Shown: positions 23,644 through 29,827 of the stretch, one piece after another
How the letters are laid out: every line of letters starts with the position of its first letter
Position numbering within the stretch: position 1 is the stretch's first letter
NCBI GenBank assembly: GCA_040220875.1
Contig: JAVJVX010000006.1
Span: forward strand, 248,001-312,000
Direction of reading: 5' to 3'
Length of the DNA: 64,000 bases
From: Alphaproteobacteria bacterium
GTDB taxonomy: Bacteria; Pseudomonadota; Alphaproteobacteria; JAVJVX01
The notes under the pieces: model-generated
The model's input: the letters and a program-made list of their open reading frames with translations, nothing else
Database searches by the model: none
Told to the model about the DNA's origin: nothing
Position numbers and translations under genes: made by a program

Positions 23644-24474
23644 TTGAGTCTCCTGAACCCAGGCAAAAATTTATACCGAGAAACCGAGATCCTCGTGGTG
23701 GACGACGACGCGGGCAGCCGCGAGGAACTCAGCGACGTGATCAGCACGCTCGGCTTCGTTTGCCATCAGGCAGGTGATGGTGAGGCTGCGCTTTACAATT
23801 TTGCCCAGAATCCGGATGTCGGCGTTGTTGTCACCGACCTCTGCATGCCTGGCGAGAACGGCCTCGACCTTGTGCAGAAGATCTCGCTGCACGCCGAATC
23901 CCGGCGCCCGCCGGAAACACTGGTCGTGACCGGATTCGCCGACCTCGACAAAGCAATCGGCGCGCTCCGGCTATCCGTCACCGACTTCCTTAAGAAGCCG
24001 GTTTCCCGGGAGGCGCTGGTGATCGCCGTTCACCGAGCAGTCGGACGCTGGCAAAGCCGCGACCGGCGTGCCGATTTCGGCAGTCATCGTCGCTCAGCTG
24101 TCCAGGGTGAAGCGACAGGACGTTTTAGCGCCGCCGAGGCGGATACGCTCAAGCGTCTTATCGACAATCATGTATGTCGGGAGCGGTATTTCGATGCACA
24201 ACTTTTTTCGGACCCAATCTGGGCCATGCTTCTGGACCTGGCCCTCGCCGAAGCCCAGGGCCAAAGCGTATCAGTCACCAGCCTCTGCGCCGCCTCAGGC
24301 GCTCCTTACGCGACAGCGTTCCGGAAACTTGATCTGCTATTGACCCGGCGCATGATCTCGCGGCGGCGGGATCCGAAAGACAAACGCCGCGTGATTGTCG
24401 AATTGACAGCCGACACCCGGGAAAAGCTGAAGAACTTGGTTGGTGATATTCGCCAACAAGAAATGATGGCCTGA
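23644..24474 (+). CDS. Response regulator with REC and MarR-like winged-helix domains
   Basis: 276 residues from a TTG start with AGGA seven bases upstream. The receiver domain (about 14-130) has acidic residues Asp20-22, phospho-acceptor Asp65 in VVTDLCMPG and the switch Lys in DFLKKPV (near 117-118). The C-terminal part (about 170-270) looks like a MarR-type winged helix: DPIWAMLLDLALAEAQG, then a recognition helix APYATAFRKLDLL and a wing with DPKDKRRVIVELT. REC proteins usually carry OmpR, NarL, LytTR or NtrC-type outputs, so a MarR-like output is uncommon. It is the first gene of a + strand cassette with two more receivers and a histidine kinase. Confidence 0.8.
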   Translation: MSLLNPGKNLYRETEILVVDDDAGSREELSDVISTLGFVCHQAGDGEAALYNFAQNPDVGVVVTDLCMPGENGLDLVQKISLHAESRRPPETLVVTGFADLDKAIGALRLSVTDFLKKPVSREALVIAVHRAVGRWQSRDRRADFGSHRRSAVQGEATGRFSAAEADTLKRLIDNHVCRERYFDAQLFSDPIWAMLLDLALAEAQGQSVSVTSLCAASGAPYATAFRKLDLLLTRRMISRRRDPKDKRRVIVELTADTREKLKNLVGDIRQQEMMA

Positions 24475-24530: not shown

Positions 24531-24920
24531 ATGACTGCCATCGAAAAACGGAATCTGCCGGCCGAACCGATTGTCGTGGCCGACGATGATCCTGCGCAGC
24601 TTGAGGAAATCTCCGACTATTTGCGCCGGCGAGGTCACGATGTGGTGGAGGCGCGAGACGGTTTTTCAGCTCTAGCGGCGATCAAGAAATACCAGCCACG
24701 CATCGCGCTGATCGACGTGAACATGCCAAACTGGGATGGCGTCCGGGTGGCGGAGGTAGCGAGTAGCTTCAATCACAAGCTCGCCCTGATTCTGTTTTCC
24801 GGAGACAGCGAGGCAATCGTAAGGGCCAATCAGAGCCACACCCATGCCTTTGCCGTCATTGAGAAGCCCCTAGCCATGCGCCATGTCGAGCGCTTCGTCA
24901 ACGCCGCCCAGGCGCAATAG
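24531..24920 (+). CDS. Single-domain response regulator (CheY-like)
   Basis: 129 residues, one receiver domain. Acidic pocket Asp18-Asp20, phospho-acceptor Asp62 (ALIDVNMPN) and switch Lys in VIEKPLAM are all present. There is no output domain, so it is likely a phosphorelay intermediate or acts by protein contact. It lies 56 bases after the REC-MarR gene and 16 bases before another receiver. AAGGGAA precedes the ATG. Confidence 0.88.
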   Translation: MTAIEKRNLPAEPIVVADDDPAQLEEISDYLRRRGHDVVEARDGFSALAAIKKYQPRIALIDVNMPNWDGVRVAEVASSFNHKLALILFSGDSEAIVRANQSHTHAFAVIEKPLAMRHVERFVNAAQAQ

Positions 24921-24936
24921 ACGGCTGCGGATCCCC

Positions 24937-25359
24937 ATGGCCAATGCCGATCGGCCCGGGCCGGCCCTCCTGCTTGTCGACGATGATTCGGACACGCTGG
25001 ACGAATTGTTGGATTTTTTCGAGAATCGTGGAGTCCGGGCGCACGGCGCTTCAAATGTCGATGGTGCGATCGAGCTTCTCAGCCTTAATACCTACATCGA
25101 TGTCGTCATCACCGACATCCGTATGCCGGACCGGCCGGGACAGCACCTGCTGGCCGAAATCGCATCGCTCAGACGCGAGCGCGGTCGTGCCGTCGTGGCA
25201 ATCGTGATGACGGGACATGCAGGCCAAGCAGAGGCCAATGAGTCCGACGCGCTTGGGGCGGCTGCCTTCCTCACCAAGCCCGTCAGCCCGCGCCGTTTGA
25301 TCAAAGAGGTCATAAAGGCCCGCCAGTGCCTGGCCGGCGGCGCCGGAGATAGGCCGTGA
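24937..25359 (+). CDS. Single-domain response regulator
   Basis: 140 residues, one receiver domain: LLLVDDDSDT supplies the acidic pocket, Asp60 in VVITDIRMPD is the phospho-acceptor and the Lys in AFLTKPVSP the switch residue. The ATG at 24937 is chosen by alignment with the typical receiver start; its ribosome site is weak, which suggests coupling to the preceding gene. A start further upstream at 24883 would overlap that gene. The stop overlaps the GTG start of the histidine kinase (GTGA at 25356-25359), so kinase and receiver are probably made together. Confidence 0.85.
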   Translation: MANADRPGPALLLVDDDSDTLDELLDFFENRGVRAHGASNVDGAIELLSLNTYIDVVITDIRMPDRPGQHLLAEIASLRRERGRAVVAIVMTGHAGQAEANESDALGAAAFLTKPVSPRRLIKEVIKARQCLAGGAGDRP

Positions 25360-28154
25360 CGTTCGTCACCCGGAAAAACGGGGATATGAGAGGTCGCGCT
25401 GTGACGGCGCGGCCCCGCAACGATTTGACGGGCTGGCACTTGCTTGCCGGCGGCCTCGCTCTCGGGCTCGCGGGGCTCGGCCTCAATGCGCTGGCCATCC
25501 CCCTAGGCTTCAGCCTGCATTTCCTTCTGGGCAACATCGTTATTTATATTGCAATCCGGTTCTTCGGGCCCGGCGCCGGCGTGCTGGCCGGCGCACTGGC
25601 TGGCGCCTCCACCGTGGCTTTATGGGGCCATCCATGGGCGTGGATGATCTTCGCGATCGAGGCGGTCGCTGTCTCGCTGGCAGGAAGTCGCAACGTTCCC
25701 TTTGCCATCGCTGACGGCGTCTTCTGGGTCCTCGGCGGCATTCCACTGGTTTGGCTGACCTATGGTGGGATCATGGGCATGGACGCCTCCTCCGTCTGGC
25801 TCGTGGCCTTAAAGCAGTCCTGCAACGGGGTTCTGCTTGCATCGCTCGGCAGCCTGATTGGCCTTATCAGCGCCCGAACGGGCGGGCGACCCCATTCCCT
25901 GCGAGTGGTCACGGTCGACCTGTTGTTCATGTTCTCGCTATTGCCCGTTATCGCCTCGATGCTCTGGAATATCACCCATTTCGAGAATGAGGCGATTCGG
26001 GACATCAAACACCAAACCAGGTCTGAAATTACCCACCTCACGTTGGCGCTGGACACCTGGGTGGAAGGTCAAAGCACCCTCCTTTCAACCTTGGCCTTAC
26101 CGTCTCTTACCTCAACCCGAGATATCGAAATAACAAGGGAAGGCCGCATATCAGGCCTCGATAAACGCCACGTCGACGCCGTGGCCGTGGCCGTGTTTGA
26201 TCCATCGGGGCAGCGGCGCAGCCAATGGCCGGCCGCCTCGCCGGTGGCCCCTCTGGCCCTGAGTTCCGCACAAATCGATACCATTGTTCGCAAAGACGCG
26301 GAGTCTGGCGGCCCTGTCCTGCGCTATTTGCCCAATGGGGGCGGCATTATCGAACTTTGTCTCCCGCTGTTCCGAGACGGCAATCTGCTTGGCATGGTCC
26401 TCGCGTTTTATGACCGTGACCGGATCGGGGACCAGCTTGCCCTGACCGACCGGAAAATCCGGTACACCCTACTCGCGCCGGACGGGACGCCCATCCTCTG
26501 GTCGGAAAAGCGCCTGTCCGGCCCAGCGTCGTTTGCAACCAGAGAGTTCGTGTCCTGGGGCGGCCTGTCGCTGTCCTTGCCCGCCGCTATTCCCGGGCAA
26601 TCGACTATGCAGGGCTGGAATAACGCCTTCGTTATTGTCGAGAAGGACTTGGATGTCCCTGGCAGCGCATCAAGGGTCCGGTTCTACATTCCATTCTCCG
26701 AGACTGTTCTGCGCTTCCGCCAATCCCAGCGCGAGAACCTCGTAATCGCACTCCTGATATCGGTCGTGGCGGCGGGGCTGGCCTGGTTCGCCGGTGGGCG
26801 GACCACGACAACCTTCAATAATCTGAGTAGGGATATTAGGGAAATTTCGGGCCGCCATCAGGACGTGACAATGGTGAGGAACCATCCAATCACCGAAGTT
26901 ACCCTGATGACAGCCGCGATCTCGGATACGCACAATAAACTGGTCGCCCACAAAGACAACGTCAGCCGCTTGCAAGAACAACTGCGAACACTCTTGAGGT
27001 ATGCACCGATGGTCGTCTTTACACTGTCGCGCACCGCGACCGGCGACTGGCATATTCTTTATCGTAGCCCTCCCAACGAGCGACTGAACTGGCTCGACGA
27101 CAGCGCGCTCGATAATCGTCAGGAGTGGCTCGCCCTTATCCATCCTGACGACCGAGAAGCTGCTCTGAAGGCCTTTAACCAGCTTTCCGCAACCGGCCGC
27201 AAGGCCGTTGAATATCGCATCCGGACCCGGTCTGGAGACTGGCGCTGGGTGCTGGACGAGGCCTTTCCGATTACCGAATCGGACGACGGGACAAATGTCG
27301 AGGCCGTGGGAGCGATCATCGATATACAGGAAAGGCGGGATAACGCCGAGCGACTTTCCACCTCGGCGCGCCTAATTACGCTCGGTGAAATGGCAACCGG
27401 CTTGGCGCACGAGTTGAACCAGCCTCTTAACACCATCCGAATCGCCGCCGAGAACGCGGCGATAGCCATCGAAGATCTTTCTATCGACGAAGAATCCCGC
27501 GCGTATCTGTCTAAACGCCTGGCGCGCATTTGCGACCAAACTGACAGAGCTTCGCTGATCATTGATCATATGAGAATTTTTGGCCGGCGGCCCGAACACT
27601 TGCCCGAGCATTTCGAGATTTCAGAAGCGGTCGAGGGAGCCATGACAATTTTGCGCCCTGAACTCCGGGTTGCCGGGATCGACCTGCTCGTAGGTCATCA
27701 AGATTCGGAATGTCCGCCACTTCACGGCCATCGACAGCTTCTGGAACAGGTGATCGTCAACCTGGTGCTCAACGCCAGGGATGCGGTTTCGAGTGAACAG
27801 CAGCGCAGGCGGGCCGACAAGGGGTCATTCCGCGGCCGCATATCCATCGACTACGATTACCATAGACTCGACTGTCACGTATTGCTTCGCGTGTCGGATA
27901 ATGGCGGCGGCGTTCCACAAGAATACGAAAAACGCGTCTTCGACCCATTTTTCACAACCAAGCCTCCAGGGAAGGGGACAGGCCTGGGCCTTGCCCTAAG
28001 TTTTGGCATCGTCAACGAGATGAACGGCCGCATCGACTTCTTCAATAACGGCGCCGGTGCTGTCTTTACTGTCCGGTTGCCCATCGGCCGGCTGCGCAGA
28101 ATTTCCGAAATACCCCAGGATGCCGGGCCAGATGCACGGGATGATCGCGCCTGA
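25356..28154 (+). CDS. Membrane sensor histidine kinase with PAS domain
   Basis: 932 residues from GTG 25356, which has GGAGATAGG just upstream; ATG 25386 is an alternative. Residues about 30-210 contain six or more membrane segments resembling a MASE1-type integral sensor. About 215-440 is an extracytoplasmic, Cache-like region, followed by a further membrane helix (IALLISVVAAGLAWFAGG) and a linker. A PAS/PAC domain covers about 545-660 (IHPDDREAALKAF, RTRSGDWRWVLDEAF). His685 in GLAHELNQPLNTI is the phosphorylation site, and the ATPase domain has the N box NLVLNARDAV, DNGGGVP and GKGTGLGLALS. The three receivers upstream are the evident partners. Confidence 0.92.
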   Translation: MTFVTRKNGDMRGRAVTARPRNDLTGWHLLAGGLALGLAGLGLNALAIPLGFSLHFLLGNIVIYIAIRFFGPGAGVLAGALAGASTVALWGHPWAWMIFAIEAVAVSLAGSRNVPFAIADGVFWVLGGIPLVWLTYGGIMGMDASSVWLVALKQSCNGVLLASLGSLIGLISARTGGRPHSLRVVTVDLLFMFSLLPVIASMLWNITHFENEAIRDIKHQTRSEITHLTLALDTWVEGQSTLLSTLALPSLTSTRDIEITREGRISGLDKRHVDAVAVAVFDPSGQRRSQWPAASPVAPLALSSAQIDTIVRKDAESGGPVLRYLPNGGGIIELCLPLFRDGNLLGMVLAFYDRDRIGDQLALTDRKIRYTLLAPDGTPILWSEKRLSGPASFATREFVSWGGLSLSLPAAIPGQSTMQGWNNAFVIVEKDLDVPGSASRVRFYIPFSETVLRFRQSQRENLVIALLISVVAAGLAWFAGGRTTTTFNNLSRDIREISGRHQDVTMVRNHPITEVTLMTAAISDTHNKLVAHKDNVSRLQEQLRTLLRYAPMVVFTLSRTATGDWHILYRSPPNERLNWLDDSALDNRQEWLALIHPDDREAALKAFNQLSATGRKAVEYRIRTRSGDWRWVLDEAFPITESDDGTNVEAVGAIIDIQERRDNAERLSTSARLITLGEMATGLAHELNQPLNTIRIAAENAAIAIEDLSIDEESRAYLSKRLARICDQTDRASLIIDHMRIFGRRPEHLPEHFEISEAVEGAMTILRPELRVAGIDLLVGHQDSECPPLHGHRQLLEQVIVNLVLNARDAVSSEQQRRRADKGSFRGRISIDYDYHRLDCHVLLRVSDNGGGVPQEYEKRVFDPFFTTKPPGKGTGLGLALSFGIVNEMNGRIDFFNNGAGAVFTVRLPIGRLRRISEIPQDAGPDARDDRA

Positions 28155-28207: not shown

Positions 28208-29827
28208 GTGAGGCCCTTGATAAGTGCGGCCCTCGTCCTGGTCTGCCTCGTCACGGAGGCCAGTGCCGAGCCACTCGACCCGAAAGAGGTTTTTGCGCGG
28301 ATCCAGCCGGCCCTCGCGGCCGTGACGGTAGCCACCGTGCGCGGCAAGGCGGGCCGTGCGACCGGCTTCTTCATCAGCCCCACTGTCGTCGTTACAAACT
28401 ATCACGTCGTAAAAGATGCGCGACTCGTGACGGTGACGCGCCTGGGCAGCGGCAGGAGCAGTCCGGTCGTCGACATTCTGGCGGCCGATTGGGCCGGCGA
28501 TATCGCCATTCTGAAAATCAGGGAATCTCCCGGGCCGCATCTGGAGGTGCGCCGCCGCCCCATCCCCGCGGTCGGGCAGCGCGTTTACGTGATCGGCAAC
28601 CCCAAAGGACTTACGGGCTCGCTGTCCGACGGGCTCGTCAGCGGCATCCGCAGCGAGGGCGGGCGCAAGGTTATCCAGATATCTGCGCCCATCGCAGGTG
28701 GAAGCAGCGGCAGCCCGCTGGTCGACGACACGGGGGCGCTTATCGGCCTGGTCTACGCGCGCGAGACCGGGGAGCAGCAAATCGGCTTCGCGACCCCGGT
28801 CGACCGCCTGCACGCCCTCTTGAACGACGACGCGGTGACCCGCGGAACGCGCGAACTGACGAGGGAACAGTTCAGTTCGCGATCCATCCCTCCGCCCGCG
28901 GCCTCACCGATCGCGACATCACAAGGCGACGCCGCGGAGAAAATACGCACGATCCGCATCGGTGTCCCGCATTGGGACAGCGCCAACGCGGTCGCGCATA
29001 TCCTTCAGGCCGCCATTGAAAAGAGACTCCCCTATCAGGTGGACCTCGTTCGGGCGGAGAACGAGGAGATATTCGAGTCCCTTGAAAAACAGGACGGTAC
29101 TTACGATGTCCATCCCGACGTCTGGCTGCCCAACCACGAGCCATTCCTCTCTGAAAGCAAGAACATTGTCCTCAATGACGCTCCCTATCTGGGACGCCAG
29201 GGCATCTGCGTGCCGCGTTATGTGGCCCAGCAACTGGGTATCAAGCGGGTCCACGACCTGATGACACCCGGCGCCCACACGCTCTTCGACGTGGACGGCA
29301 GCGGCAAGCCCGATCTGTGGATCGGGGATGAGAGCTGGGAAGCAGCCCGGATCATGCGGCTCAAGGCGCGGGATTATGGATTTGAAAGAGTCTACCAACT
29401 CACGACCTGGGACGAGGCGCGGCTGTGGGACCACGTGGAAGCGGCCTTTCGTGACCATCGCGCCATCGCTTTTTATTGTTACGAGCCCCATTGGGGAATG
29501 GAAAAATACCAACTGACCATGCTGGAAGAACCGGCCTACAGCTCAGACTGTTTCGCGCTGGCGCCGGCGGTCCCGAGCCCGGCCGCAAACGATGACTCCA
29601 AGGCCGGCTGTGCCTTCCCGCCGGCCCGTATCCATGTGGGCTTCAGCCGGGAACTGGCAAAGACCGCGCCCGATCTGGCCGGGCTGCTGGGCGCGGCCCG
29701 GTTCACGTCCAAAGAGGTCAACCGCTGGATCGAAGGCATGGGCGACGCGCGCGCGCTGCCCGAAGTCGTCGCCCGCCGCTGGGCGACCGAAAACGCCCGC
29801 CTGATCGAGAACTGGACCGAATCGTAA
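28208..29827 (+). CDS. Secreted trypsin-like serine protease fused to an OpuAC/ProX substrate-binding domain
   Basis: 539 residues from GTG 28208, with GGAGG five bases upstream. Residues 1-20 form a signal peptide (cut after ASA). Residues about 25-215 are a DegP/S1C-like protease with His66 (NYHVV), Asp98 (GDIAIL) and Ser167 (GGSSGSP). No PDZ domain follows; instead, after a Ser/Pro/Ala linker (about 222-245), residues about 247-515 form a type II periplasmic-binding domain of the OpuAC/ProX class (IRIGVPHWDSANAV, DVHPDVWLPNHEPFL, YCYEPHW), which binds quaternary amines such as betaine or choline. It lies 53 bases after the histidine kinase. A ligand-controlled periplasmic protease or coreceptor is one reading. 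Confidence 0.88.
   Translation: MRPLISAALVLVCLVTEASAEPLDPKEVFARIQPALAAVTVATVRGKAGRATGFFISPTVVVTNYHVVKDARLVTVTRLGSGRSSPVVDILAADWAGDIAILKIRESPGPHLEVRRRPIPAVGQRVYVIGNPKGLTGSLSDGLVSGIRSEGGRKVIQISAPIAGGSSGSPLVDDTGALIGLVYARETGEQQIGFATPVDRLHALLNDDAVTRGTRELTREQFSSRSIPPPAASPIATSQGDAAEKIRTIRIGVPHWDSANAVAHILQAAIEKRLPYQVDLVRAENEEIFESLEKQDGTYDVHPDVWLPNHEPFLSESKNIVLNDAPYLGRQGICVPRYVAQQLGIKRVHDLMTPGAHTLFDVDGSGKPDLWIGDESWEAARIMRLKARDYGFERVYQLTTWDEARLWDHVEAAFRDHRAIAFYCYEPHWGMEKYQLTMLEEPAYSSDCFALAPAVPSPAANDDSKAGCAFPPARIHVGFSRELAKTAPDLAGLLGAARFTSKEVNRWIEGMGDARALPEVVARRWATENARLIENWTES

Follow-up and report, generated by a model that had tools for sequence, protein, structure and literature searches.

The locus described here raises a question about control. 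In the usual view, HtrA proteases sense protein quality, with peptide binding to their PDZ domains as the gate. What, then, might govern an HtrA-like protease that carries, in the position of the PDZ domain, a substrate-binding domain of the OpuAC type? The gene encoding this protein lies in the window, by which we mean the whole 64,000-nucleotide stretch of alphaproteobacterial DNA that was analysed. Its parts, the genes beside it, and three related proteins are listed in Table 1.

Table 1. Features of the locus and of related fusions. Positions are those of the window, except for the last three rows, which are loci of genome G078. G375 is a further genome used for comparison.
Feature	Position	Strand	Basis
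First response regulator (RR): receiver and MarR-like winged helix (wHTH)	23644..24474	+	wHTH just below Pfam cut-off
Second RR: single-domain receiver	24531..24920	+	Pfam; 68% identical in G375
Third RR: response-regulator receiver	24883..25359	+	Pfam; homologue in same order in G375
Membrane histidine kinase: N-terminal TM helices, PAS_3, HisKA, HATPase_c	25356..28154	+	Pfam, hydropathy
Fusion gene: signal peptide, HtrA-like trypsin domain, linker and OpuAC, 539 aa	28208..29827	+	ORF, translation, Pfam
Predicted Sec signal peptide, residues ~1-20, MRPLISAALVLVCLVTEASA/EP, no lipobox	28208..28267	+	Hydropathy, motif reading
Trypsin_2 (S1C, HtrA-type) core, residues 51-181, H66/D98/S167, Ser169 for Gly	28358..28750	+	Pfam, conservation, model
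Interdomain linker, residues ~207-247, Pro/Ala-rich from ~228, disorder predicted from 214	28826..28948	+	pLDDT, sequence
OpuAC (PF04069) substrate-binding domain, residues 248-527, cage W256/W306/Y425	28949..29788	+	Pfam, alignment, PDB profile
Trypsin module and FGE-sulfatase	G078 L126:1402-2955	+	
Trypsin module and Peripla_BP_6	G078 L132:343-2163	-	
Trypsin module and FGE-sulfatase	G078 L168:5188-6795	+	

Protease and binding-protein domains share one reading frame

The fusion gene runs in one frame, without interruption, for 539 codons, from a GTG at position 28208 to a stop codon at 29825-29827. A Shine-Dalgarno-like GGAGGT is found a few nucleotides upstream of the GTG. Hydropathy analysis identified residues 1-19, ending ASA/EP, as the sole hydrophobic segment of the protein. 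Pfam recognises Trypsin_2 in the first half (100.3 bits against a cut-off of 27.6, E 2.1e-28). In the second half, OpuAC scores above its gathering threshold across the full model (145.3 bits against a cut-off of 21.2, E 3.3e-42, profile positions 2-256 of 257). No Pfam match to a PDZ domain was detected at E<=0.01. The NCBIfam models agree on both halves, with no curated cut-off reached. The earlier note had described one chain with a signal peptide, an intact H66/D98/S167 triad, and OpuAC in place of PDZ; coordinates, strand, length and Pfam matches all agree with this. The product is predicted to be an exported, soluble, HtrA-like protein.

The fusion is present in one genome only, and an assembly or sequencing artefact might have fused two genes. 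We consider this extremely improbable. Against it stand the single open frame and a coding signal that is uniform over the junction of the two domains, where third-position GC stays between 0.69 and 0.86 throughout. In addition, there is no second signal peptide, and the domains are separated by a disordered linker (pLDDT below 50 at residues 214-247 of the structure model). The locus also lies well inside a long contig, in a genome of 9 contigs that is an estimated 99% complete. The open frame, even coding signal and missing second signal peptide likewise led us to reject a sequencing frameshift joining two genes. Note that, in all of the 19 stand-alone OpuAC relatives examined, the protein seems to begin with a signal-like sequence of its own, and that the fused domain lacks one. 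Hence, the fusion is not explained by mere loss of the stop codon that would have separated two genes with exported products.

The protease half is predicted to have an HtrA fold

Modelling of the protease half, as the earlier note had suggested, produced an HtrA fold with high confidence. Values of pLDDT were mostly above 90, and the best fold matches were DegQ, DegS, Deg1 and DegP. The H-D-S triad occupies HtrA-type motifs of the trypsin fold. Across 99 aligned relatives, H66 and S167 never vary, and conservation of D98 is at least 90%. The oxyanion-hole residue, Gly165, is also present. We infer that the domain is catalytic. One substitution stands out: in the fusion motif GSSGSP, residue 169 is serine (SGSP), a position held by glycine (SGGP) in at least 90% of relatives. 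This replacement could result in lower protease activity. The Ser169 codon is at window positions 28712-28714.

Proteins of the HtrA/Deg type usually have at least one C-terminal PDZ domain. Here, residues 248-527 are OpuAC instead. Curated Deg models were not passed: TIGR02037 gave 83.6 bits against a cut-off of 416.2, and all NCBIfam Deg models were far below their thresholds. The genome encodes a DegP-like protease of its own. In a tree with long branches and weak deep forks, this groups with other DegP-type proteins, apart from the fusion, and we rejected a recent origin from it.

The binding half retains an aromatic cage

Two modelling attempts, made without a usable alignment, gave pLDDT values mostly below 60 over the OpuAC half. 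The identity of this half rests on profiles, namely the Pfam match and a profile of 17 sequences compared with the PDB. The latter finds Bacillus subtilis OpuAC, Borrelia and E. coli ProX, Lactococcus lactis OpuA, ChoX and TmoX. Entries 2reg and 4xz6 are, we assume, ChoX and TmoX, respectively. A different fold for the C-terminal part was rejected by the Pfam, NCBIfam and PDB profile matches.

In L. lactis OpuA, the ligand site comprises a Trp-prism that includes W484 (PMC2861598). Residues W256, W306 and Y425 of the fusion align with the prism positions in a profile, rather than structural, alignment; W484 is named in the cited work, and the other two OpuA positions, W330 and W377, were counted from the alignment. 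Hence, the aromatic betaine-binding box, which the earlier note had recommended looking for, is present by alignment. The third cage position is tyrosine in the fusion (Y425), and is a near-invariant tyrosine in stand-alone relatives. Nearly all of the columns invariant among those relatives are kept. Since these columns and the three cage aromatics are retained, conservation suggests that the fused OpuAC still binds ligand. Given the cage, glycine betaine, or a similar quaternary amine, would be the natural ligand class. Choline and TMAO are among the further ligands of relatives with the OpuAC fold.

Gene content argues against transport

One alternative is that osmolyte uptake remains the job of the OpuAC domain, with the protease as a passenger. 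The annotation of the closest OpuAC relatives, as glycine betaine ABC binding proteins, is in favour of this. The gene content is not. One other PF04069 protein is encoded in the genome, on a different contig; it joins an OsmF-like domain to a permease of its own. This protein is also the sole strong match to a ProW-like permease; no other convincing ProW homologue was found in the genome. Hence, the only ProW-type protein found is already fused to its own substrate-binding protein. A ProV/ProW-type ATPase and permease partner for the fusion was not identified, no stand-alone OpuAC protein is encoded in the source genome, and no ABC genes flank the fusion gene. Because a stand-alone OpuAC, a clear ProW-type partner and flanking ABC genes are all missing, delivery to a transporter is unlikely, and sensing or targeting would be the more likely role. 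We therefore rate continued osmolyte uptake as very doubtful. Separately, the genome's own OpuAC paralogue, being OsmF-like and remote, was rejected as a recent source of the fused domain.

The upstream two-component genes are conserved without the protease

As had been noticed earlier, the fusion gene follows genes for three receiver proteins and a membrane histidine kinase. The kinase gene, on the same strand, ends 53 bp upstream. The first response regulator, with its receiver-wHTH arrangement, is the probable transcriptional output. By hydropathy, the kinase has a periplasmic region of ~260 amino acids, which matches no Pfam family; a search of the PDB with this sensor region gave no match. 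The fusion gene is probably co-transcribed with the four upstream genes. A promoter and terminator scan of the locus gave no informative signal. Genes resembling tamA and tamB begin 226 bp downstream of the fusion gene.

Homologues of the kinase were found in two genomes, G375 and G389, and a search of plasmids found none. Genome G375, which belongs to a different family, has the four genes in the same RR-wHTH/RR/RR/HK order. These are 38%, 68%, 36% and 36% identical to their counterparts (36-37% for the kinase homologue), and are followed by unrelated genes. In G389, a receiver gene precedes the kinase homologue (L167:3520-6319:-), which is split over two frames. This split, in a draft genome, is a frameshift or an assembly error. 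No OpuAC or trypsin match was seen near either homologue, within ~20 kb in G375 or on the 6.6-kb contig of G389. The earlier note had asked whether the fusion keeps company with the kinase; in both relatives found, it does not. Since these operons lack the protease, the RR-RR-RR-kinase genes form a conserved signalling unit, and the protease was either added to it in this lineage or is just its neighbour here. By the same two comparisons, the kinase does not need the protease-OpuAC gene.

The fusion is rare and its parts are shuffled elsewhere

No second Trypsin_2 and OpuAC fusion was found in 385 genomes of the same class, or 399 of the same phylum (overlapping samples), with the best three candidates scored per genome, so that distant fusions could be missed. 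Other matches in these samples are confined to one half, the protease or OpuAC. Among 72,556 plasmids, 403 records match partly and none covers 80%. The organisms that carry the nearest OpuAC relatives point to Alphaproteobacteria as the class. A pattern scan of about 85,000 GTDB species, sensitive mainly to close relatives and leaving out the source genome, gave no match to both domains among its best 80. Note that the source genome is the sole member of its order among the genomes searched. Viral contigs yielded no OpuAC relatives. Likewise, the papers searched did not describe such a fusion. To this extent, the suggestion that it is not a described system stands, with neither a second copy nor a description found. 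What must be added is that a parallel fusion, of Trypsin_2 to Peripla_BP_6, exists.

The parallel occurs in genome G078, which encodes one exported trypsin module three times, the copies being 89-93% identical over the module. One is fused to Peripla_BP_6 and two are fused to FGE-sulfatase. This is recent domain shuffling, and the Peripla_BP_6 protein is a second, separately formed, fusion of protease and binding protein. No further copy of it was found in the class sample. The Peripla_BP_6 part has an 89% identical copy, without the trypsin module, elsewhere in G078. Among other relatives, Trypsin_2 modules have WD40, TPR, PG_binding or MORN repeats as partners, and also PDZ. A 973-codon frame of another genome (G742 L169:3787-6705:-) encodes a multi-TM protein that matches EamA below the threshold and ends in a fused OpuAC domain. 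This is another use of OpuAC outside ABC importers. Hence, with parts that are known separately and shuffled, the new element would be the pairing of Trypsin_2 with OpuAC. Judged by sequence comparison, the architecture is unusual; it rests on one genome, and is without a conserved functional partner.

Discussion

Tentatively, and with slightly less than even confidence, we propose that the fusion is an HtrA-like periplasmic protease, the activity or targeting of which is set by a quaternary-amine ligand, and that it is co-expressed with the two-component system. OpuAC, of the betaine/choline type, would stand in for PDZ as the sensor of an S1C protease. Binding of the ligand would close the OpuAC clamshell. 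Closure might then, via the linker or direct contact, alter access to the protease, its activity, or a docking site. Hence, the protease would cut envelope proteins upon encountering a quaternary-amine osmolyte or nutrient, not misfolded protein. The periplasmic part of the neighbouring kinase, of ~260 residues, is a plausible candidate substrate. In the fullest form of the idea, a quaternary amine would switch an HtrA-type protease that clips the kinase sensor, creating an osmolyte-proteolysis-two-component relay in one operon. This stronger claim we consider unlikely.

Ligand binding might be used differently. Substrate-binding proteins that act as co-receptors are known, as in the LuxP-LuxQ and TorT-TorS pairs, and the kinase encoded 53 bp upstream offers a periplasmic region to dock with. 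Ligand-loaded OpuAC could bind this region, and the protease could then clip the kinase or serve as a scaffold. A co-receptor of the LuxP/TorT type would be expected to keep a conserved pairing with its kinase gene; in our two comparisons, with G375 and G389, no such pairing was found, and these homologous kinase operons manage without a protease-OpuAC gene. A docking or co-receptor function is thus improbable. Much the same doubt attaches to a plain envelope quality-control protease, in a stress two-component operon, with OpuAC as a tether and no gating. Two-component control of HtrA-type proteases is common, CssRS-HtrA in Bacillus being an example, and the attachment of trypsin modules to partners as unrelated as WD40, TPR, FGE-sulfatase and PG_binding is compatible with such a role. 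The flexible linker, in a fusion known from a single genome, also fits tethering without allostery. However, the ligand-cage residues are conserved, and a mere tether would not need them.

If control by a quaternary amine is correct, the exchange of PDZ for a clamshell puts the same protease under the control of a small metabolite. The fusion would then be a compact, natural, chemical-responsive protease.

Comparison with known systems places each half in a familiar family. Like OpuAC, ProX, ChoX and TmoX (PF04069), the fusion has a full-length domain with a conserved aromatic cage. Unlike them, its OpuAC has no signal peptide of its own, sits behind a protease, and has no permease or ATPase gene nearby. 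Members of the HtrA/Deg family (DegS, DegP, DegQ and Deg1; MEROPS S1C), which give the best matches in sequence as well as in fold, are, like the fusion, exported trypsin-fold proteases with an H-D-S triad, but usually have C-terminal PDZ where the fusion has OpuAC. The L132 protein of G078 likewise begins with an exported trypsin module, followed by a domain of the periplasmic binding-protein kind. However, its binding domain is from another family, and the protease modules are only 33-37% identical. With respect to gating, the PDZ domain of DegS reads the C-termini of unfolded outer-membrane proteins. Autoinhibition of DegS is relieved when a peptide binds this domain (PMC7593790). With respect to output, the periplasmic protease Prc cleaves the sensor of the VgrS kinase under osmostress in Xanthomonas campestris (PMC6237974). 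The parallel is functional only: a periplasmic protease cuts a kinase sensor, but Prc belongs to the S41 PDZ proteases and has no sequence relationship to the fusion, and the Prc-VgrS system has no substrate-binding protein. By analogy, the proposed logic has natural precedents for both of its halves, in the PDZ gating of DegS and in the cleavage of VgrS by Prc.
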